This document shows, piece by piece, positions 10,222-64,000 of a DNA stretch of 64,000 nucleotides (positions within the stretch are counted from its first letter, which is position 1; the number at the start of each line of letters is the position of its first letter). The notes beneath the pieces are model-generated. The model was not told where the DNA came from, did not search any database, and worked only from the letters and a program-made list of their open reading frames with translations. The stretch is taken from assembly GCA_938002255.1 (NCBI GenBank), contig CALLAL010000019.1:1-64000 (forward strand), read 5' to 3'. This DNA comes from an uncultured bacterium. Its GTDB lineage: Bacteria > Desulfobacterota > BSN033 > UBA1163. A program made the translations under genes and the position numbers.

Positions 10222-12522
10222 CTATGCCGAAGTCGATTCCTCTTCAGATAGATAGGGAAGTTTTTTCTTCTCTTTTCCTTCTTTTCCGTAATAGTAATGG
10301 TACCGGTAATAGTAGTAACCGTACTCGCTTCGTTCAATGTTGACCCGGTTGATCACCACTCCCAGGATTTTGGCATTGACCTGAAGAAGCAGGTCTTTTG
10401 CCCTCTGGAGGGTTTCCCGGGGCGTCTTTCCTCCCACAGCAACCAAGATCAAGCCATCCACCGAAGTGGAGAGGACCGCTGTATCGGCAAAGCCGAGGAC
10501 AGGCGGAGAGTCAAAGACGATATGGTTAAACCGTTCTCCAAGACTCTGAACCATCTCTTTAAACAGATTGGAACTGATCAGCTCAGAGGGATTAGGAGGA
10601 ATGGGACCGGAGGGGATGTAGAAGAGATTCGGAATCTCTGTGGCTTTGATAATCGCCTCCAGTCCGGTATTTCCGGAAAGAAAATTGGAGAGACCAACTC
10701 CATTTTCTTCACTAAAGACTCTGTGAATGCGGGGTTTTCTGAGATCAGCATCTATCAGGACCACGCTCGCACCGGTCTGAGAGAGAGCAATGGCCGTATT
10801 GATCGCCGTTGTGGTCTTTCCCTCGGCAGGATTGGGACTGGTGATGGCAATCCGTTTGGGAGGCCTTTCAGAAAAAGAGAGAAGGATCGATGTTCGGATA
10901 TTCCGATAGGCTTCAGAGAGCATCGATTTGGGGTGACGGTGGGTGATGAGTTCGATCGGATAGGTCTGCCCTTTCTCCAATCTCTTTCGCCGATATTGAG
11001 AGATCTCAGGTACCATCCCGAAGGAAGGAAGCCGGATGAGTTGTTCCACATCTTCCGGAGTCTTGACTGTGTTATCAAGATATTCAAAGAAGAAGGCCAG
11101 ACCCACACCAAGGAAGAGACCCACAACCACCGATAGGATGAGATTGAGCTCCTTGTTGGGCTTGAACGGCTTGATGGGCCGCTCTGCCTGATCCACTACC
11201 TGAATGTTGCTTGCCATGATTCCAGCAGAGACACCCGCCTCTTTCATCCGCTGAAGGAGGCCTCGATAGAGTTCTTTGTTGGTATCGGCTTCCCGTTTAA
11301 GAATATTGTACTGGATTGCCTTCTCTTTCATCTCCATAACCCTACGTTTCTGGGCTTCAAAGCTCTCCCGAAGCAGTTTCTCCCTTCGAAGACTCGACTC
11401 ATACTCATTCTGGATCCCTGTGACGATGCGTTGAATCTCTCCATCGAGCCGATCCCGAATCGTTTTAATCTGGGTTCGCAGTCTGACCATCTCGGGATGT
11501 TCCGGTTTGAATGTTTCTGACAGTTTCATGTACTGGCCTTCAAGCTGGATGAGAGCCTGTTTTAAATCCATCACCAATTTGTTTTCGAGGATAGAGGGAA
11601 GGGAATCGCCATAAGCCCCTTTGGTCTGCCGATAGAGCGCCTCCTTTCCCATCCGCTCAGCTTCGGCTTTGGTCAACGCCTCATTCAGTTCATTGAGACG
11701 TTGAATGACGACATTCTCCTTCTCTTCAAGAGAGATGATGTCATGTCTGGATCCAAACGCCTGGAGCGCCTCATCTGCCCGTTCCACCTTAGCTTTCAAA
11801 TCTTCCAACTGTTTGGTCAGCCATTCTTTGGCTTGCTCTGTGGCATAGAAACGGGTTTCAAGGTTCTGCTGGATGTAAGCCTTGGCCAGCGCATTGGCTA
11901 CCTGCGCAGAAAGATCAGGATCATTGGAGTCAAAATGTATTTTTACCAGACGGGAGTTGCGGATGGGTTCGACTTTCAACTGTTTGAGGAACCGATTGAT
12001 AAAGAGGGACTCCTTTTCCGTTTCGTCAGGCTCCTTCTCCACAGCAGACTTCCAGAAGGAGGAGATTGAGTTGAGGAGATTTGATTTCCAGGTTTGAAAA
12101 GCCGTCTCCTTTTCAGGTTGAAATTGGGGGTGTTCCTGAAGCTTGAGGGAATGGATCACCCTTCGAGCCAGCGTCCGGCTCTCGAGGATTTTATACTGGG
12201 TTTGGTAATAATCCATATCCATCGTATTCACGGCGAGGATCTCTTTGAAGTCAACAATCTGTGGGTTCTCTTTGTTGATCTGGAGCGTGGTCGTGCCCCG
12301 GTAGATGGGTTTCATGGTGAAGGTAAAAACCAGGGTGGTCAGGACAACGATGAGAAAGAAAGCCAGGACTGTCCATCTCCTCTTCAGGATAACCCGTCCA
12401 TAGTCCCTCAGGTGGATTTCTTTCTCTTCTTGAGGGTAAAACGATCCATAACCCGGGGGGGGCTGGGGAGCATTGTATCGATCATTGTATCGATCAGGAT
12501 AGTTCCAGTTGATCTCGTTCAT
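10222..12522 (-). CDS. polysaccharide co-polymerase with BY-kinase (Wzc-type tyrosine autokinase)
   Basis: 766 residues. The Wzz-type N-terminus has membrane segment 1 (~45-70, WTVLAFFLIVVLTTLVFTF), a large coiled-coil periplasmic part (~190-430) and segment 2 (~455-480, LNLILSVVVGLFLGVG). The cytoplasmic kinase has Walker A NPAEGKTTT, Walker A' VVLIDADLRKP and Walker B HIVFDSPPV. The tail YGYYYYRYHYYY has nine tyrosines in twelve residues and is the autophosphorylation cluster. It controls chain length and drives export with Wza. The PHP phosphatase at 5650 is the expected counterpart. Confidence 0.93.
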   Translation of the reverse strand: MNEINWNYPDRYNDRYNAPQPPPGYGSFYPQEEKEIHLRDYGRVILKRRWTVLAFFLIVVLTTLVFTFTMKPIYRGTTTLQINKENPQIVDFKEILAVNTMDMDYYQTQYKILESRTLARRVIHSLKLQEHPQFQPEKETAFQTWKSNLLNSISSFWKSAVEKEPDETEKESLFINRFLKQLKVEPIRNSRLVKIHFDSNDPDLSAQVANALAKAYIQQNLETRFYATEQAKEWLTKQLEDLKAKVERADEALQAFGSRHDIISLEEKENVVIQRLNELNEALTKAEAERMGKEALYRQTKGAYGDSLPSILENKLVMDLKQALIQLEGQYMKLSETFKPEHPEMVRLRTQIKTIRDRLDGEIQRIVTGIQNEYESSLRREKLLRESFEAQKRRVMEMKEKAIQYNILKREADTNKELYRGLLQRMKEAGVSAGIMASNIQVVDQAERPIKPFKPNKELNLILSVVVGLFLGVGLAFFFEYLDNTVKTPEDVEQLIRLPSFGMVPEISQYRRKRLEKGQTYPIELITHRHPKSMLSEAYRNIRTSILLSFSERPPKRIAITSPNPAEGKTTTAINTAIALSQTGASVVLIDADLRKPRIHRVFSEENGVGLSNFLSGNTGLEAIIKATEIPNLFYIPSGPIPPNPSELISSNLFKEMVQSLGERFNHIVFDSPPVLGFADTAVLSTSVDGLILVAVGGKTPRETLQRAKDLLLQVNAKILGVVINRVNIERSEYGYYYYRYHYYYGKEGKEKKKLPYLSEEESTSA

Positions 12523-19684: not shown

Positions 19685-19909
19685 GTCATCCCTCAGTTAG
19701 GTGGTGTTTTCGGTTTAAAAGGGGTGGAACGTTCCTCCTCCAAAACCTTGAATAGCAGTTATAAAAGGTTACCCTCATCGGGGCCCTCATCCCCTTTGAA
19801 TCGGTTTTTTTGAACCAGATTGGGTCGTTTTGACGAACAGAGGTTTCGCCACAAGATTTTTCCGAAGCAACCTCCCACCCCTTTTTTATTTCTTTAACTG
19901 AGGGGGGAC
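19685..19909 (-). mobile_element. MITE-like element, copy 2 (inverted)
   Basis: 225 bp, reverse complement of copy 1 with scattered substitutions. Ends are GTCATCCCTCAGTTA and the complement of GTCCCCCCTCAGTTA. It is flanked by perfect 8-bp direct repeats TGTCGATG at 19677-19684 and 19910-19917, exactly abutting the ends. This is the clearest evidence that the family transposes. It lies between divergent hisC and dctP, 19 nt and 16 nt from TTGACA boxes on either side. Confidence 0.9.
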
Positions 19910-19994
19910 TGTCGATGAGATGGATTTGACAAACCTATCGGAACGTATTAAACGTATTAAATGTTTTGAAATATTTTAAAAAGGAGGAGGAGAA

Positions 19995-21125
19995 ATGCAA
20001 ATGAAGAGAATTGTACTGTTGCTTCTCATGGTTTCGATTTCGTTTTTCTTCTTTTCGGGTCTCGCAAACGCTCAGACAAAGGTTTATACCTGGAAGATTC
20101 AGAGTACCTGGGCGGCTGGAGCCTTCGAGCATGTTAACCCCAAAGATCTGGTGGCAAGGCTGGAAGAGATGGCAGGGGGAAGATTAAAACTTGAACTCCT
20201 TCCTGGAGGGGCTATCGTTCCACCCTTTGAGGTGCTCGACGCCGTCCATAAAGGTATTGTAGATGCTGGTCATGGATGGCCGGGATACTGGGTTGGAAAA
20301 CATCCAGCCATGGCCCTCTTCAGCACAGCAGGCGGCGGTCCTTTTGGAATGGAACGTGAGGATTTCATGAGCTGGGTTTATCTTGGAGGAGGGCTTGACC
20401 TTTATAATGAACTTCTCCAGAAGGAACTGAAGTATGATGTCGTCTCCTTTCCAACAGCAGGAGACCCTCCTGAGCCTCTGGGATGGTTTAAAAGACCGAT
20501 CAAATCTGTTGCCGACTTCAAAGGGATTAAGTTCCGGGCCGCGGGTATGGCCGCAGAGGTCTTTAAAGAACTTGGGATGTCCGTGGTCACCCTTCCCGGA
20601 GGGGAGATTGTTCCTGCCCTTGAGCGAGGGGTAATTGATGGGACGGAATATCATTCCCCGAGTGCGGATATGTCAATCGGCCTTCATAATGTACGTAAGG
20701 TCTATATGATGCCGAGCATCCATCAACCTACAGGGTTTATGGAATTGATCATCAACCGCAAGAAGTGGGAGGAATTACCAGCAGACCTGAAAGCCATTGT
20801 GAAAACGGCCTGTATGGCAGATGCTCTCTATTTTGCTCTCAAGCAGATCGACCAGAACAGCAAAGACCTTGAGACCATGGTGACCAAACATGGAGTTCAG
20901 GTGGTTCAAACTCCTGATGAAATCATCATCGAGATGCTGAAGGCATGGGACAGGGTGGCAGAGAGGAAGTCAAAGGAGAATCCCTTCTTTGCAAAAGTTC
21001 TTGCCTCTCAAAAAGCCTGGGCAGGTCGGGTGGTTCCTTTCCGTACGGTCTATCATCCGCCCACGGAAAAGATTGCTGAATATTACTGGAAAGGGGTCAA
21101 CCCTTATAAGGTTACAAAGCCGTAG
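19995..21125 (+). CDS. TRAP transporter substrate-binding protein, DctP family
   Basis: 376 residues: signal peptide (LLLLMVSISFFFFSGLANAQ), then TRAP DctP text: STWAAGAFEHVNPKDLVARL, ELLPGGAIVPPFEVLDAVHK, GIKFRAAGMAAEVFKELGMS, LPGGEIVPALERGVIDGTEY and a long connecting helix. It binds a small acid, often a carboxylate or amino-acid derivative, in the periplasm and hands it to DctQM. The start follows AAGGAGGAGGAG. A terminator (21157-21190) separates it from dctQM, so the binding protein can be made in excess. Location between two hut operons suggests urocanate, histidine or a related acid as substrate (inference). Confidence 0.92.
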   Translation: MQMKRIVLLLLMVSISFFFFSGLANAQTKVYTWKIQSTWAAGAFEHVNPKDLVARLEEMAGGRLKLELLPGGAIVPPFEVLDAVHKGIVDAGHGWPGYWVGKHPAMALFSTAGGGPFGMEREDFMSWVYLGGGLDLYNELLQKELKYDVVSFPTAGDPPEPLGWFKRPIKSVADFKGIKFRAAGMAAEVFKELGMSVVTLPGGEIVPALERGVIDGTEYHSPSADMSIGLHNVRKVYMMPSIHQPTGFMELIINRKKWEELPADLKAIVKTACMADALYFALKQIDQNSKDLETMVTKHGVQVVQTPDEIIIEMLKAWDRVAERKSKENPFFAKVLASQKAWAGRVVPFRTVYHPPTEKIAEYYWKGVNPYKVTKP

Positions 21126-54968: not shown

Positions 54969-55049
54969 GGGAAAAGGGACTCGACCCCTAACGCCTTACA
55001 ATTTACGCTTCCCGATCCTGACGATCCTATGATGGAAGGAGTGGATGGA

Positions 55050-55499
55050 ATGACAGGAACACAAAAAGGCAAAGTATTGGCAGTAAACATCAGCGAAGAA
55101 AAAGGCACCAAGAAGACGAATGTCCAATCCTGCATCCTTTTAAAGGACTTTGGCCTCAAGGGTGATGCTCATGGGGGTCCCTGGCACAGACAGGTGAGCC
55201 TATTGGCCAATGAATCGATCGAAAAGATGAAAGCCAAAGGATTAAAGGTGGGCTTTGGAGATTTTGCAGAGAATATCACAACCGAAGGCGTTGACCTTGT
55301 CAACCTTCCCATTGGAACCGAAATTTATATTGGAAAATCGATCGTTCTTCGCGTGACTCAGATCGGAAAAGAATGTCATGAACGATGCGCAGTCTATTAT
55401 CAGGCAGGAGACTGCGTCATGCCAAGAGAGGGAATCTTCGCGGAAGTGGTCAGCGAAGGGGAGGTGAAGGTAGGAGATGAAATTATAATCGGTTGTTGA
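55050..55499 (+). CDS. MOSC-domain protein
   Basis: 149 residues from ATG 55050, with AAGGAG at 55036-55041. GKVLAVNISEEKGTKKTNVQ, GLKGDAHGGPWHRQVSLLAN, NLPIGTEIYIGKSIVLRVTQ, IGKECHERCAVYYQAGDCVM and PREGIFAEVV form a stand-alone MOSC (Moco sulfurase C-terminal) domain with conserved Cys in GKECHxxC. The type is common beside mog in Moco operons, where it probably handles sulfur or the cofactor. Confidence 0.88.
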   Translation: MTGTQKGKVLAVNISEEKGTKKTNVQSCILLKDFGLKGDAHGGPWHRQVSLLANESIEKMKAKGLKVGFGDFAENITTEGVDLVNLPIGTEIYIGKSIVLRVTQIGKECHERCAVYYQAGDCVMPREGIFAEVVSEGEVKVGDEIIIGC

Positions 55500-55583
55500 A
55501 CCATTAGGGCGGCTTGAGTTACTTAGGTAACGAAGTGAATAAACACAATAAACCACCAAATCCAGTAACATGTTGAGCCACTT

Positions 55584-56075
55584 ATGTTTAAAGTAGCCAT
55601 TTTAACCATCAGTGATAAAGGTTCTAAAGGGGAACGTGAAGATTCAAGCGGTCCCCTGATTGAGGAGATGGTCAAGGATTTGCCCGCTCGGGTGACCCAT
55701 TATGAAATCATTCCCGACGAGAAAGAGCAGATTACGAGCGCTTTAATCAAATGCGCAGACAGTTTAAAAGTAGATCTCATCCTTACAACGGGGGGAACCG
55801 GGTTGAGTCCAAGGGATGTCACCCCTGATGCCACTCTCGAAGTGATGGAAAAAGAAGTTCCTGGGTTCTCTGAGGCGATGAGAGCAGAGAGCCTCAAAAA
55901 AACGCCCCATGCTATGATTTCAAGGGCTGTTGCAGGAACCCGGGGCTCAAGTTTGATTGTCAATCTGCCCGGGAGCCCGAAAGGAGTCAGAGAAAATCTG
56001 TCGGTGATCCTCCCTGCCTTACCCCATGCCCTTTCTAAACTTAAAGGCGACCCATCAGAATGCGGTCAAATGTAA
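55584..56075 (+). CDS. mog: molybdopterin adenylyltransferase, Mog/MoaB family
   Basis: 163 residues: VAILTISDKGSKGEREDSSG, EKEQITSALIKCADSL and LILTTGGTGLSPRDVTPDAT, the MPT-binding signature TTGGTGxxxRDVTPEA, then PGFSEAMRAESLKKTPHAMI and LIVNLPGSPKGVRENL. It adenylylates molybdopterin for MoeA. Last gene of the Moco operon; moaD/moaE and mobA are not in the window. Confidence 0.92.
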   Translation: MFKVAILTISDKGSKGEREDSSGPLIEEMVKDLPARVTHYEIIPDEKEQITSALIKCADSLKVDLILTTGGTGLSPRDVTPDATLEVMEKEVPGFSEAMRAESLKKTPHAMISRAVAGTRGSSLIVNLPGSPKGVRENLSVILPALPHALSKLKGDPSECGQM

Positions 56076-57693: not shown

Positions 57694-58455
57694 ATGACCA
57701 ATTTTTCTGAAAATCCACTCTGGCAACGGTTTCGAGAGGCCATTGGGCTAAACGAATCCCCCCTCGGTATTTTTTACACCAACGATCCACCGGAAGGCAT
57801 CAGTCCGAAAGAAGGGGTTCATGGATGCATGATCGGGCTTCTTCAGCATGCAAGGAATAAGGGAAAGACCGTCTATTTTGATAAAACCCATTTTGGATGC
57901 CCAGGAGGAGCTTATTACATGGGTTTTTTTGAATCGCCCCGACCCAATATCGAATATTTCCTCTCCTGTGGGATTCCGGGAGAAATGGAAGGGGAGCGCT
58001 ACATCAAAACGCCGGAGCGGGCAAGAGAATACTTCGCTAAAATGATCCCAAGACGGGCGCCTGCAACCTACTGTGTCTTTAAACCTATTGAGCAATTTCA
58101 CGATGGGGTTTCCCCAGAGGTGGTGGTCTTTTTTGCCTCACCGGATCTCCTGTCTGGCCTTTTTACCTTGACCAATTACGCCCTTGAACGAACAGATGCG
58201 GTCTTCGCACCCTTTGGCTCTGGTTGCGGAACGATTCTTACCTATCCTTTGAAAGAAGCCATCCGGGAGCAACCTCGAGCGATTCTCGGGATGTTTGACG
58301 TCTCAGCAAGGCCCATGGTCGAGCGTCATATCTTGACTCTCTCGATGCCTTATACCCTCTTTTTAACCCTTTTAGAGAATGTCTCTGGTAGTTTTCTTGA
58401 AACCGAAAGCTGGAAGAAGGTTCATCGAAGGATTCAAAAATCACAGGGAGAATAA
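57694..58455 (+). CDS. DUF169 family protein
   Basis: 253 residues: PLWQRFREAIGLNESPLGIF, HFGCPGGAYYMGFFESPRPN, RYIKTPERAREYFAKMIPRR, VFFASPDLLSGLFTLTNYAL and FGSGCGTILTYPLKEAIREQ. This is the DUF169 pattern with conserved Cys in GCPGGA and GSGCG. These proteins are common in strict anaerobes, often near metal- or Moco-related genes; activity is unknown. ATG 57694 follows AAAGGAGATTTCA. Confidence 0.85.
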   Translation: MTNFSENPLWQRFREAIGLNESPLGIFYTNDPPEGISPKEGVHGCMIGLLQHARNKGKTVYFDKTHFGCPGGAYYMGFFESPRPNIEYFLSCGIPGEMEGERYIKTPERAREYFAKMIPRRAPATYCVFKPIEQFHDGVSPEVVVFFASPDLLSGLFTLTNYALERTDAVFAPFGSGCGTILTYPLKEAIREQPRAILGMFDVSARPMVERHILTLSMPYTLFLTLLENVSGSFLETESWKKVHRRIQKSQGE

Positions 58456-58503
58456 GTCTTTTAGGCATCCCCTCTCTCAGTCATTGATGAAAAAGGACGG
58501 AGC

Positions 58504-58920
58504 ATGATCCATTCCGAAACCATCTCACTTCGTACCAAAGGGTTTAGTGACGTCTTAGATATTACGCCTCAGGTGGCTACCGCCCTTGATCGCTCACAAA
58601 TCAAAAATGGTCTGGTCACAATATTTTGCCCCGGATCGACAGGAGCAATCACCACGATAGAATATGAATCGGGTGTACTAAAAGATCTCCAAAAAGCTAT
58701 TGAAACCCTCGTCCCCTCTCATCTCCCTTACGAACATGATCGACGCTGGGGCGATGGAAATGGATTTTCCCATGTGAGGGCAGCACTTTTAAAACCCTCT
58801 CTCACCATTCCAGTCATTAATGGGGAGCTGACTCTCGGGACATGGCAGCAGATTGTCTTTATCGATTTTGATAATCGAAGCAGAGAGAGGAAACTGAAGG
58901 TTCAAATCCTGGGAGAATAA
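58504..58920 (+). CDS. secondary thiamine-phosphate synthase-like protein, YjbQ/UPF0047
   Basis: 138 residues: FSDVLDITPQVATALDRSQI, VTIFCPGSTGAITTIEYESG, YEHDRRWGDGNGFSHVRAAL, LTIPVINGELTLGTWQQIVF and IDFDNRSRERKLKVQILGE. This is a full match to the YjbQ fold, with the conserved TWQQI/F-DFD region. Some members can make thiamine phosphate weakly; the physiological role is unclear. Confidence 0.92.
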   Translation: MIHSETISLRTKGFSDVLDITPQVATALDRSQIKNGLVTIFCPGSTGAITTIEYESGVLKDLQKAIETLVPSHLPYEHDRRWGDGNGFSHVRAALLKPSLTIPVINGELTLGTWQQIVFIDFDNRSRERKLKVQILGE

Positions 58921-59450: not shown

Positions 59451-60200
59451 ATGAAGGCGGATGCAGATAAATGTATTGCCTGTAAGAGATGTTTCCCCTA
59501 TTGTCCTATGGGTCGAATTCAGACCTTTAAAAGACACGAAAAGATTCCTGGAAGAGTTTATATCGAAATCGACCAGGAACGATGCACGGACTGTGGGGTC
59601 TGTCTCCGTGCCAATATCTGTCCGGTCAAAGCCCTCTACCAACCTGAGACGCCCTGGCCCAGGGAGGTGCGAAGTATCTTAAGTAATCCTCTGATCGAAT
59701 TTAAAGGGTCACAGGTGCCTGGACGAGGAACAGAAGAGATGAAAACAAACGACGTCTCTGGAAGATTTCGTCCGGGGGAAGTCGGCGTGGGCATTGAACT
59801 GGGAAGGCCTGGAGTTGGAGCCTATTTCAGAGATGTAGAAATTGTTGCCATGGAATTGGCTCCACTGGGGTACGAATTTGCTGAAGAAAATCCCATTACC
59901 CACTTTATGACAGACAAAAAAACAGGAAAACTTAGAGAAGATATTCTCAATGAAAAAGCAACCTCTGCCATTGTGGAGGGAAAGTGTAAACTTGAACAAC
60001 TCCCCGTTATTCTGGAGGCGATCAAAAGAGCCGCCCAGAAGGTCAGCTCCGTCTTCACCGTAGAAGTAATCACGAAGGTCCCACTCGAGGGAGAAATTCC
60101 TGTCAAACCGGTGCTGGAGGAGCTGGGATATTGGTACTCCATCAATACCAAAAACAATATGGGACTGGGAGAACCGCCATTCAAATTCTATGAAGAATGA
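59451..60200 (+). CDS. 2[4Fe-4S] ferredoxin fused to an unrecognised domain
   Basis: 249 residues. The ferredoxin part has C8xxC11xxC14xxxC18P and C45xxC48xxC51xxxxxC57P. The remainder (~95-249) starts GRFRPGEVGVGIELGRPGVG, continues VEIVAMELAPLGYEFAEENP and ends GLGEPPFKFYEE, an alpha/beta-looking domain I do not recognise. Start ATG 59451 after GGGAGG. First gene of the operon leading to the CooS-like gene; the next gene follows within 16 nt. It may channel electrons to or from a dedicated enzyme. Confidence 0.8.
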   Translation: MKADADKCIACKRCFPYCPMGRIQTFKRHEKIPGRVYIEIDQERCTDCGVCLRANICPVKALYQPETPWPREVRSILSNPLIEFKGSQVPGRGTEEMKTNDVSGRFRPGEVGVGIELGRPGVGAYFRDVEIVAMELAPLGYEFAEENPITHFMTDKKTGKLREDILNEKATSAIVEGKCKLEQLPVILEAIKRAAQKVSSVFTVEVITKVPLEGEIPVKPVLEELGYWYSINTKNNMGLGEPPFKFYEE

Positions 60201-60215
60201 TTGAGGAGGAAGAGT

Positions 60216-60863
60216 ATGACCCATAGTCTCCATCGAAGAGGAACCTTTGATGATTTAAAGGATGATTTCGTGGTCTTAGGCTGTCCAGCCACAGGAATTA
60301 ACAAATCCGGATCTGCACCTAAAACTCAGAAATTTTTAAGCATCTGTTACAAACATGGGCCGGTGAATCTTGGAGATATGAAGACGGGCAATATTTACAA
60401 CACCACCATGGATGATATCTTGAGTCATGTGACCGACGGAACCATCGTCCAGTGTACCTTTGATAACCGTGAGAAAATCGTTTCCCTCCTGAAAGACCTC
60501 AAGGAGAACAGACCAGGCATTTCGGTCATCATCTCAGGCGTGAGTGATATTGTCCAGCAATGTATGGAAGAAGCTGGATTGGGCAGGATTCATACCATCG
60601 AGTATTCTCTTGGCACCTGGGGAAAAACCGAATTGCTCCCCGAATTTGAGATTCTCCAGACCCATACCATGTGTGGCCACGCCATGATTGGTGCGGACCT
60701 CATTCGAAAAATGGTGAGGGATGTCAAACGGGGAAGAAGAACGATTGAAGATGCCTGCCTCGAAATGGCCAAATGCTGCACCTGTGGAAACTATAACCTC
60801 ACCCGTGGCAAGAAGCTCATTAAAGAACTGCTGGCTAAATATATGGTCCACAGTCTGTATTAA
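60216..60863 (+). CDS. cysteine-rich protein of the CooS-like operon, unrecognised
   Basis: 215 residues from ATG 60216, after GAGGAGGAAGAG. Cys at ~23, 44, 80, 116, 153, 181, 187, 188 and 190. The C-terminal EDACLEMAKCCTCGNYNLTR looks like a metal or cluster site. Other motifs: VVLGCPATGINKSGSAPKTQ and THTMCGHAMIGADLIRKMV. It has no membrane segment or signal peptide. I do not recognise the family. Tight linkage to the ferredoxin-fusion and oxidoreductase genes suggests one complex or pathway. Confidence 0.75.
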   Translation: MTHSLHRRGTFDDLKDDFVVLGCPATGINKSGSAPKTQKFLSICYKHGPVNLGDMKTGNIYNTTMDDILSHVTDGTIVQCTFDNREKIVSLLKDLKENRPGISVIISGVSDIVQQCMEEAGLGRIHTIEYSLGTWGKTELLPEFEILQTHTMCGHAMIGADLIRKMVRDVKRGRRTIEDACLEMAKCCTCGNYNLTRGKKLIKELLAKYMVHSLY

Positions 60864-60960
60864 GGCGCAAGTGCAGAAGGCTAGGCGTACGTCCTCATGA
60901 ATTGAATCACGCTTTGCGCGATGCTCATTATGCGTTATGCCTTAAGAGAAGGAGAACATC

Positions 60961-62268
60961 ATGCGATATGTCATCATCGGTGGAAGTGCAGCCGCCATCA
61001 GCGCGGTTGAGGCCATTCGGTCTCTGGATCGGGAATCCCAGATCGATCTATTTAGTGATGAGGCAACCCCTCTCTTTTCGAGAGTGCTTCTGCCTTATTA
61101 CATTGCAGAAGAACTTTCCAAACCTTTCCTCAACTTTAGATCCTCGGACTTTTTTGAGCAGTACAAAGTCAATGCCCATCTGGGGGTGAAGGTCCAAGAA
61201 CTCTCTGTGACATCAAAAACCATCCTGATCGAAGGGGGAGAAACCTATCCTTTTGACAGACTTCTTCTGGCCACAGGTGGACATCCTATTGTCCCCCCCA
61301 TTCCAGGAATCGAGAAAGAGGGGATTTCCACACTGAAAACCATGGCAGACGCTGAAAAGATCTATCAACTTAAAGGTCAGAGGGCGGTTGTGATTGGTGC
61401 GGGGAGCGTGGGGGTAGAGTCCTGTATCAGTCTGAGAAAAAGAGGAATGGAAGTAACACTCCTCGAACAATTAGGACAGGTTTTGCCCACCGTGTTTGAT
61501 GAGGAGGCAGCTGCCATCATCCAAAAAAAGATTGAACATCTTGGCATCACCACGATTACGGGTGAGCGAGCGATTCAATTTGCTGGAAACGGGCATGTCC
61601 AACGTGTGATCACTGAATCAAGAGAATTGAAATGTGACCTGGTTGTGGTGGCGGTTGGGGTCAAACCCGCGATTGAACTGGCCCAGAAGGCTGGCATGGA
61701 TATCGGTTCACTGGATGGCATCACTGTCAATGCCCAGATGATGACAAACGTCCCGGATATCTATGCTGCTGGAGATGTTGCTGAAACGTTTGATATCACC
61801 CGACAGGCCAACTGGATTAATGCAATTTGGCCCTGTGCAGTTGAACAGGGTCGCATCGCAGGGTTAAACATGGCTGGCAAAAAAACGCTTTATGAAGGGT
61901 CCTTCAGAAGGAACTCCATCGGTAATTTTATAGGCGTACCCGCCATATCCATGGGGTTAACTCGTGCGGACACCTGCTCCACCTGTGAAGCTGGAGAATC
62001 CTTTCAGGAGATTAAACGAAGAACTAAAGAGTCCTACAAGAAGTTGATCATCAGAAATGGCAAACTGGTGGGCGCTATTCTGGTAGGACAGACTCAAAAG
62101 GCAGGTCTCTATTTAACTCTTCTTAAAAAACAGATCGAGGTTTCGGACTACCTCCCACTGTTAATCAGTCGGACCCTCAATTTTATGGACCTTTTACCTT
62201 TGATCCGAAGAAATGCCGATCGGTTCACCGAAACGGAGTTTAAAGAGATCATGGATACAGGGTTATAA
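60961..62268 (+). CDS. NAD(P)/FAD-dependent oxidoreductase (FNOR type)
   Basis: 435 residues. FAD-binding MRYVIIGGSAAAISAVEAIR, LLLATGGHPIVPPIPGIE, NAD(P)-binding AVVIGAGSVGVESCISLRKR and FAD site IYAAGDVAETFD, followed by a C-terminal cap. It resembles NADH:acceptor oxidoreductases of the NirB/rubredoxin-reductase class, without redox-active CxxC disulfide. Similar flavoproteins sit with CooF and CooS in CO dehydrogenase clusters and reduce NAD+. The same trio order occurs here. Confidence 0.85.
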   Translation: MRYVIIGGSAAAISAVEAIRSLDRESQIDLFSDEATPLFSRVLLPYYIAEELSKPFLNFRSSDFFEQYKVNAHLGVKVQELSVTSKTILIEGGETYPFDRLLLATGGHPIVPPIPGIEKEGISTLKTMADAEKIYQLKGQRAVVIGAGSVGVESCISLRKRGMEVTLLEQLGQVLPTVFDEEAAAIIQKKIEHLGITTITGERAIQFAGNGHVQRVITESRELKCDLVVVAVGVKPAIELAQKAGMDIGSLDGITVNAQMMTNVPDIYAAGDVAETFDITRQANWINAIWPCAVEQGRIAGLNMAGKKTLYEGSFRRNSIGNFIGVPAISMGLTRADTCSTCEAGESFQEIKRRTKESYKKLIIRNGKLVGAILVGQTQKAGLYLTLLKKQIEVSDYLPLLISRTLNFMDLLPLIRRNADRFTETEFKEIMDTGL

Positions 62269-62349
62269 ATGACATGTCAAATAAGATGAATTTTAAAAGA
62301 AAAAATTTGTAGCCGCATCCCTCAAGATGCGCTGGATGGGGAGGGAAAA

Positions 62350-62802
62350 TTGAAGATTCTAATGGTTGATAAAAACAAATGCACAGGATGCCATCAATGT
62401 GAACTCTGGTGCGGAACTGAAATTACATCGGTATCAAAGGAACTGACTCGAGCCATTCACGAGCAGCCCCAGCCTGTCCCAAGGGTGTATGTGGAAGGAA
62501 AACCTTTTGCCTTGCAATGCCGGCATTGTGAGGACGCTCCTTGCATTGAAGCCTGTCCTAACGGGACGATGAGAAGAGATCCAGAGACAGGTCTGGTCTA
62601 TGTGAACGAACCCACTTGCATTGCCTGCTGGATGTGTGTCATGGCCTGCCCTTTCGGGATCATCAATCCTTCTGCGTCCATGAAGGTGGCGATTAAATGT
62701 GATCGTTGCCGAAATATGGGGTATCCCATTTGTGCAGAGGTCTGTCCAACACAGGCGATCACGTTGGAAGAAAGGAAAGACTATCGGACAAAAGCTTTCT
62801 AA
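62350..62802 (+). CDS. CooF-like four-cluster ferredoxin
   Basis: 150 residues with four 4Fe-4S sites: CTGCHQCELWC, CRHCEDAPCIEACP, CIACWMCVMACPFG and CDRCRNMG-PICAEVCP. This order and spacing fit the CooF/HycB/DmsB-type electron-transfer subunits. It starts with TTG (62350) after GGGGAGGGAAAA. It would link the CooS-like protein to the flavoprotein upstream. 61 nt before the CooS-like start. Confidence 0.88.
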   Translation: MKILMVDKNKCTGCHQCELWCGTEITSVSKELTRAIHEQPQPVPRVYVEGKPFALQCRHCEDAPCIEACPNGTMRRDPETGLVYVNEPTCIACWMCVMACPFGIINPSASMKVAIKCDRCRNMGYPICAEVCPTQAITLEERKDYRTKAF

Positions 62803-62863
62803 TTGAAATAATGAAATGGTCAAAAGTCGGGTTTTATCCCTTTAGGTTAGAAAGGAGTAAGAG

Positions 62864-64000
62864 ATGGAATTTATTCAGAAGAAGACGATGGACACGGTGG
62901 TAGAATATTTTGTAACCAGGGCAGCAGAGGGAGAGATGCCTTTGGTATGGGATCGATTTGAAGGACAGTTGCCTGAGTGTGGTTTTTGTGAGACGGGGTT
63001 AAGCTGCCGCGACTGCCTTCAGGGACCCTGCATCAGCCATCCCTTCCGGGATGTCAATAAGGTAGGGGTCTGTGGTAAAGACAAAGACCACCTTGCCATC
63101 CAGTCCCTTTTGAGATTGGTGTTAAAAGGAACCATGATTTATTTAGACCGCTTAAGCGATCTGACCCGAGGGGTTGAAGCAGGAGAAGTCAAACCCCAAA
63201 GCAAGACCCAAACCGACCAATTGCTTAAGGAATGTCAAAACCTCCTGAGAAACGGTGGATCCCAATTTAAAAAGGAATTTCCAAAATCAGTGACTCGCCG
63301 ATGGGACGACTTGGGGATCGTGCCGGAAGGACTGGGAAGGGACCTCTTCAAACCTTCTCAAAAATTGGAGGGCGGGGTCAGCGATGTGGAAGAAATCTTC
63401 CTCTATGCCTTCAAGGCTTCTCTGTTAGGCTGTATGGCCCAATGGCTCTATGGAAAATTAAAGGAATCTGTCTTTGGCGAAACCGTTCCTACAACGATTG
63501 CCGTCAATTTAGGAGGTCTCAAACAAAATGGTCCCAACCTTCTTCTTTACGGTCATTTTTCACCGATCCTGAAACGAAAGATTGCTGAAGCAGCTAAGAA
63601 GCAGGACGTAAACGTGATGGGCGTCTGCATGGACCCCCTGCTCCCTCCTTTCCGCTTCCCCATCGCTACCAATTATGGATCCCAAGAAATTCCTTTGATG
63701 ACAGGAGCTGTTGACCTGCTGGTCGTGGGAGACCAGTCCGTTAATCCTTCTTTAGTGGAAGTGGCCAAGGCCTTTGAAGTCCCCATCATTTCAACAGAAA
63801 CTTTGAAACCCAAGAAAGATTCTGGAAGTTTTGCCAGAAGCATTGTCGAGCAGGCCAAACAAGCTTTCGACTTTCGCCGAGCCATTCCAAGAGAGATCCC
63901 GGAGGCCAACGAACAAGCCACCGTGGGTTTTTCTCAGGGCAGTCTCGATGGGAAAAAGATCGCCTCCAGTCTCCAGAAAGGTCTATTGAAAGGGATCGTG
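62864..64000 (+). CDS. CooS-family (CO dehydrogenase-like) protein with altered metal ligands, partial
   Basis: First 379 residues; the gene runs off the window. Start ATG 62864 after GAAAGGAG. The N-terminus PLVWDRFEGQLPECGFCETG, LSCRDCLQGPC…, VGVCG aligns without gaps to CooS. Cluster B Cys 48, 51, 56 and 70 are kept. Cluster D shows C39-x2-C42 and Ser47 instead of the common second Cys. His231 (LLLYGHFSP) matches the C-cluster His. The position of the next ligand is Met256 (GVCMD) and that of the following ligand is Ser292 (GDQSVNPS). It is therefore a CooS-fold protein probably unable to form the standard Ni-Fe site. A non-CO reaction or an electron-transfer role is possible. Confidence 0.85.
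   Translation, partial: MEFIQKKTMDTVVEYFVTRAAEGEMPLVWDRFEGQLPECGFCETGLSCRDCLQGPCISHPFRDVNKVGVCGKDKDHLAIQSLLRLVLKGTMIYLDRLSDLTRGVEAGEVKPQSKTQTDQLLKECQNLLRNGGSQFKKEFPKSVTRRWDDLGIVPEGLGRDLFKPSQKLEGGVSDVEEIFLYAFKASLLGCMAQWLYGKLKESVFGETVPTTIAVNLGGLKQNGPNLLLYGHFSPILKRKIAEAAKKQDVNVMGVCMDPLLPPFRFPIATNYGSQEIPLMTGAVDLLVVGDQSVNPSLVEVAKAFEVPIISTETLKPKKDSGSFARSIVEQAKQAFDFRRAIPREIPEANEQATVGFSQGSLDGKKIASSLQKGLLKGIV

Follow-up and report, generated by a model that had tools for sequence, protein, structure and literature searches.

A widespread ferredoxin-type gene pair accompanies CooS-like proteins that have lost their CO site at least twice

Results

Five redox genes precede an organic-acid transporter

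The window (the whole 64,000-nt stretch of DNA analysed, part of contig C19 of a 3.27 Mb genome) ends in five open reading frames that are intact, collinear and all on the + strand, spanning 59451-64585 with CooS extending beyond the window:

59451..60200, + strand: FDX, 249 aa, N-terminal dicluster ferredoxin fused to an undescribed domain
60216..60863, + strand: ORF215, 215 aa, undescribed Cys-containing partner of FDX
60961..62268, + strand: FNOR, 435 aa, FAD/NAD(P) oxidoreductase of the pyridine-nucleotide-disulphide family
62362..62802, + strand: CooF-like polyferredoxin, 146-150 aa, alternative TTG start at 62350
62864..64000 in the window (62864-64585 on the contig), + strand: CooS-like protein (probably a degenerate clade G Ni-CODH), 573 aa

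Intergenic gaps are 15, 97, 81-93 and 61 nt, and all reading frames are present with the arrangement that an earlier note on this DNA had described (five collinear genes, gaps of 15-97 nt). The cooS frame, cut by the window end, runs on uninterrupted on the contig. That note had recommended inspecting the genes to the right: CooS is complete to 64585, the organic-acid transporter genes TctC, TctB and TctA begin 46 nt 3' of it, and a GntR/FCD regulator and then a class-V aminotransferase follow, so that the operon is longer than the earlier note saw.

FNOR combines a Pyr_redox_2 domain with a rubredoxin-reductase-like C-terminus, and its nearest curated model is PadH, at 271 bits against a cut-off of 475; the CooF-like protein has four 4-Cys motifs. 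The host genome encodes one other CODH-family protein, on contig C17, in a Wood-Ljungdahl cluster whose gene identities were read from the sequence. Upstream of the operon, on the same strand, lie genes for a DUF169 protein, also found in a second species (G007), and a YjbQ/UPF0047 protein (57694-58920), and at 55029-56075 a MOSC-domain protein adjoins a MoaB-like molybdopterin protein.

FDX and ORF215 form an obligate pair

The ferredoxin part of FDX is of the 2x[4Fe-4S] type, with eight Cys (C8, C11, C14, C18; C45, C48, C51, C57), and is followed by a C-terminal domain of about 180 aa that bears the invariant motifs GRGTEExKxN...GRPG...NxKxNxGLG; K98, G118-R-P and K234 are invariant non-Cys residues of FDX. 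Invariant in ORF215 are R7, C153-G-H155 and C188-x-C190-G..N194..R197, and from this motif pattern the three Cys probably form the site for one further Fe-S cluster. The true start of ORF215 is the ATG at 60216, where the opening residues MTHSLHRRG are conserved.

Neither the FDX C-terminal domain nor ORF215 matched a Pfam or NCBIfam family, even with a consensus query, and sequence searches of the PDB returned no relative of either; the ferredoxin part of FDX alone resembled known ferredoxins, weakly. AF2 models of both proteins were confident (pLDDT 92.6 for FDX, 93.1 for ORF215), and a PDB fold search with them gave no match at E<=1e-3 for the FDX domain or ORF215. No homologue of known function was found for FDX or ORF215.

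A scan of bacterial and archaeal contigs with the FDX domain recovered at least 565 relatives, with hosts including Bacillota, Chloroflexota, Bathyarchaeota and Lokiarchaeota. ORF215 lies directly behind FDX in 163 of the 168 FDX genes read in context, with a median gap of 12 nt; three of the five exceptions lie where a contig or locus ends, and the other two have the order reversed. The earlier note was right that two genes here lack a described family (no Pfam, NCBIfam or PDB match), but with 163 of 168 adjacent they are one obligate pair, not the two orphans it had listed. Up to nine ORF215 matches occur in a single Desulfobacterota genome, and at loci L064, L110 and L157 a single operon contains several diverged pairs next to one another.

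Several variants of the pair were also recorded. Archaeal pairs with no CooS-like genes nearby occur in Bathyarchaeota (L117) and Lokiarchaeota (L145, L148). In an FDX subfamily (L055, L061, L065, L066) the second-cluster Cys are interrupted by about 25 inserted residues (NERYMPWFVRAVRKVL...), and an FDX homologue at L082 (genome G031) lacks the ferredoxin domain yet adjoins ORF215. At L160, ORF215 is split into a 140-aa N-terminal piece (10540-10962) and a 121-aa piece with the Cys motifs (19793-20158), the latter encoded behind a hydrogenase gene, which indicates that ORF215 has two modules. No reading frame with both FDX and ORF215 domains was found; two candidates for such a fusion, at L106 and L114, were merely long upstream ORFs.

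The CooS-like protein has lost the CO site and kept its B-cluster

The CooS-like protein belongs to the Prismane/CODH family over its full length, scoring 214 bits against the curated CODH cut-off of 478 (TIGR01702) and so falling short of the equivalog score. Ligands were assigned by alignment to CODH-IV and CODH-II. The B-cluster Cys (C48, C51, C56, C70) and a D-cluster of type III, CxxC(x5)C (PECGFCETGLSC), are kept. Of the C-cluster ligands His261, Cys295, Cys333, Cys446, Cys476 and Cys526, the protein retains the His and one Cys, at the 294/295 position, an assignment that hinges on a two-residue gap; Cys333/446/476/526 are replaced by S/S/E/G, and the acid-base Lys563 is Ser both here and in G007. 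The changed active site claimed by the earlier note is thereby confirmed, through loss of four C-cluster Cys and Lys563, and since the four Cys holding the Ni-Fe-S cubane are gone, the change is stronger than it had stated.

Same-operon orthologues from the same family (G045) and the same genus (G215) keep the C-cluster Cys and Lys563 and fit the clade G signature. The signature of clade G, as tabulated in PMC6344411 (Table 2: type III D-cluster; H,T,C,C,C,C; Tyr, Lys), is carried by orthologues L046 and L059, with which the window CooS groups in the tree, and not by the window copy. A mini-CooS-like protein of Anaerospora (L093) retains all ligands.

We surveyed 34 CooS-like proteins associated with FDX/ORF215 together with 20 canonical CODHs. 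The B-cluster Cys are complete in all 34, while all four C-cluster Cys are lost in 27 and kept in seven, five of which also keep Lys563; all 20 canonical CODHs have the four. Within the group that lost the site, no new Cys is conserved throughout as a replacement ligand (best 63%). D-cluster Cys39 is Asp in most proteins of this group, as in most Bacillota members, which weakens the case there for a relay between D- and B-clusters. Judged from the residues of the seven that keep all four Cys, some lineages may still carry out CO chemistry.

A maximum-likelihood tree of CooS implies at least two losses of the C-cluster, although its deep part is unsure because of long branches. Within it, the window protein and G007, both without the site, group with G045, G215 and G192, which keep it (support 100/100). 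Between the window and G007, CooS is 68% identical and the fastest of the five proteins, the other four being 79-90% identical; its best-conserved part (85%) is the stretch of 60 N-terminal residues with the D- and B-cluster motifs. For this comparison dN is 0.225 and dS is saturated, with 573 codons open in both species. A pseudogene is ruled out by an intact gene in two species with saturated dS; the degenerate CooS is under purifying selection and is not decaying.

The CooS type depends on the pair, and not the reverse

Across 297 Desulfobacterota we found 14 CooS-like matches above 430 bits, clearly apart from canonical CODH (at most 321 bits); 12 of these adjoin ORF215 and the other two are cut by contig ends. 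Among 83 Desulfitobacteriia, the 11 genomes with a CooS-like protein all fall within the 13 that have FDX, and none of the 70 without FDX has one, though most carry canonical CODH. Co-occurrence is thus complete from the CooS side (11/11 genomes in each of the two samples), with Fisher p ~5e-12 for CooS-like and FDX in Desulfitobacteriia and p 1e-13 for CooS-like and the pair in Desulfobacterota, both values ignoring kinship. In 39 further genomes, every CooS-like gene is on a contig that also carries FDX, next to it in nearly all cases and about 9 kb off in one, and no canonical CODH adjoins FDX-ORF215, the nearest being 19 kb away. Nor does any of the pair loci L043-L161 contain a canonical CODH.

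Of 106 pair loci, among which are some duplicates, just 25 have CooS within five genes. Many genomes have several FDX-ORF215 pairs that lack CooS; most pairs are of this kind, in organic-acid operons. The dependency is one-way: the CooS type was never found without the pair but the pair is mostly without CooS, which makes the pair the core and CooS, CooF and FNOR the accessory of a subset. The earlier note had proposed to check whether both proteins always accompany the variant CooS and never canonical CooS, naming as counter-evidence their occurrence mostly without CooS or with canonical CODH. The expected association holds in that the CooS type always has the pair, and no canonical CODH stands beside it; the converse fails, the pair being found mostly without CooS, with CooS near only the 25 of 106 loci.

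Gene order varies and neighbourhoods are diverse

The full set of five is found again in Desulfobacterota, Desulfitobacteriia, Sporomusaceae, Oscillospiraceae, Halanaerobiales and further groups, in at least three orders: CooF-CooS-FNOR-FDX-ORF and CooF-CooS-FDX-ORF-FNOR at 13 loci each, and FDX-ORF-FNOR-CooF-CooS at three, with a few loci duplicated. Gene content that stays constant while order shifts typically marks genes that function together, and this recurrence rules out chance clustering.

TTT or TRAP transporters lie at most five genes away in 44 of 106 pair loci. The enzymes encoded near the pair are very diverse (AOR, Zn-ADH, GlcD, HIBDH, PdxA, DapA, ThDP enzymes), too varied to decide on a substrate, and a common substrate class is not supported.

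An operon of Desulfosporosinus (L239 in G353:C68, also L120 and L134) encodes a sigma54 activator, FDX, an N-terminal ORF215 piece, an MDH2-type dehydrogenase, NuoE, a 1027-aa fusion of NuoF with a pyridine-nucleotide reductase, an [FeFe] hydrogenase, CooF, a CooS-like protein, ORF215 with the Cys motif, FNOR and IlvD; its redox genes from FDX to FNOR follow one another directly. NuoE and NuoF were identified by Pfam on relatives, and the hydrogenase by sequence motifs. Here the pair is found in the company of redox proteins linked to NAD(H), ferredoxin and H2. At L116 and L131 the pair adjoins hydantoinase, FdrA-like and DUF1116-like genes, named by eye, which suggests a ureide or cyclic-amide pathway.

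Discussion

The reading we favour, with about as much doubt as confidence, is that FDX-ORF215 is a ferredoxin-type oxidoreductase acting on an acid imported by TctCBA, for which CooF and FNOR provide the link to NAD(P)H and CooS a scaffold without CO chemistry. An organic acid would enter through TctCBA and be oxidised or reduced by FDX and ORF215 as two subunits, using two [4Fe-4S] clusters in FDX and probably a further one on the three invariant Cys of ORF215. We infer the catalytic role of the pair, and the name oxidoreductase, from its Fe-S motifs and gene context. CooF and FNOR would pass electrons between FDX and NAD(P)H, in a direction that we likewise infer, and the CooS-like protein, a former CO dehydrogenase, would serve as a scaffold for docking and, through its D- and B-clusters, for electron relay. 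With no catalytic C-cluster predicted in it, the operon would do no CO chemistry. For a broader statement, doubt slightly outweighs our confidence: that the pair is an undescribed class of ferredoxin-linked oxidoreductases widespread among anaerobes, both bacterial and archaeal, and that clade G and mini-CooS proteins are its electron-transfer subunits, repeatedly without the Ni site and with the B-cluster kept.

The operon could instead be a CO-dependent NAD(P)+ reduction system (CooS-CooF-FNOR) whose CooS has degenerated in this species, FDX-ORF215 being an accessory electron acceptor. The trio does match CO/FNOR units as described in PMC6344411 and PMC8776680, close orthologues, from within the genus and the family, retain the G-1 motif (H,T,C,C,C,C,Y,K), and the Anaerospora protein keeps every ligand. 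We nevertheless consider this quite unlikely, given that the window and G007 copies lack the four Cys and Lys563 yet retain gene, operon and purifying selection, that 27 of 34 members lack the site, that the CooS type never occurs without a pair which canonical CODHs never adjoin, and that the genome has a CODH/ACS-type CODH elsewhere.

Two further readings concern the pair itself. It may be a two-subunit, substrate-diversified relative of 6-hydroxynicotinate reductase (Hnr), that is, a reductase that depends on ferredoxin and acts on conjugated or heterocyclic acids; a presumed likeness in motifs (GRGTEEMKTND, CGHG...CxCGxFNP) and summed length points this way, as do the hydantoinase or FdrA-like genes near some pairs (L106, L116, L131). 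Hnr itself reduces a ring acid (PMC3511419). With no Pfam or NCBIfam match for the pair, no match in plasmids and no fused FDX-ORF215 gene found, we rate this as unlikely; it would be compatible with our favoured reading and would name the reaction type. That the pair is an electron-transfer or regulatory adaptor of transporter-linked catabolic operons, the true catalyst differing per operon, would suit its very diverse neighbours. The invariant non-Cys residues (R7, N194 and R197 of ORF215; K98, G118-R-P and K234 of FDX) resemble an active site, however, and several diverged pairs adjoin one another in single operons (L064, L110, L157), which makes an adaptor quite improbable.

CooS genes are used to recognise CO metabolism. 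The whole CooS lineage described here depends on a different Fe-S pair, and its CO site has disappeared at least two times, so that genes of this kind should not be taken as evidence of CO use; the redox reaction that these "CO dehydrogenase" genes support is probably another one. The deep-branching clade G also gains an obligate partner. FDX-ORF215, which has no curated model and occurs on more than 500 contig stretches of bacteria and archaea, is offered for biochemical test. If related to Hnr, the pair would constitute a family of reductases that use ferredoxin and act on conjugated acids, which would lower its own novelty and not that of the degenerate CooS.

Comparison with known systems

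The NAD-linked Fe-S modules of the PadH/PadI type, from phenylglyoxylate dehydrogenase, share with this operon the best curated match of FNOR, PadH, whereas subunits like the oxidoreductase PadEFG are lacking here. The 6-hydroxynicotinate reductase of E. barkeri and Azorhizobium, which we take to be ferredoxin-dependent, with an N-terminal ferredoxin and a resemblance in motifs and length, differs in that two genes are present here, in contexts that are mostly not those of nicotinate. The CooS-CooF-FNOR unit for CO-dependent NAD(P)+ reduction (clades C-G; Geobacter, Clostridium) likewise has CooF, FNOR and CooS in one operon; here, CooS is without the CO site, and the FDX-ORF215 pair and the TctCBA transporter are added.

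Closest is the clade G Ni-CODH (G-1) or mini-CooS, beside which CooF-FNOR was already reported by Inoue 2019 (PMC6344411). The clade descriptions in PMC6344411 and PMC8776680 agree with our proteins in length (~470-570 aa), type III D-cluster and CooF and FNOR neighbours, and L046 and L059 share the His/Thr/C/C/C/C pattern with Tyr and Lys. A link to FDX-ORF215 is absent from those descriptions, and our literature search, itself incomplete, found no paper linking the pair to CooS. According to its selection procedure, the 2022 CODH survey (PMC8776680) removed proteins in which C-cluster Cys were lost, and this would account for the group having gone unnoticed. It is in these residues that the known clade and our set differ, the window protein and 26 other members being without the C-cluster Cys.
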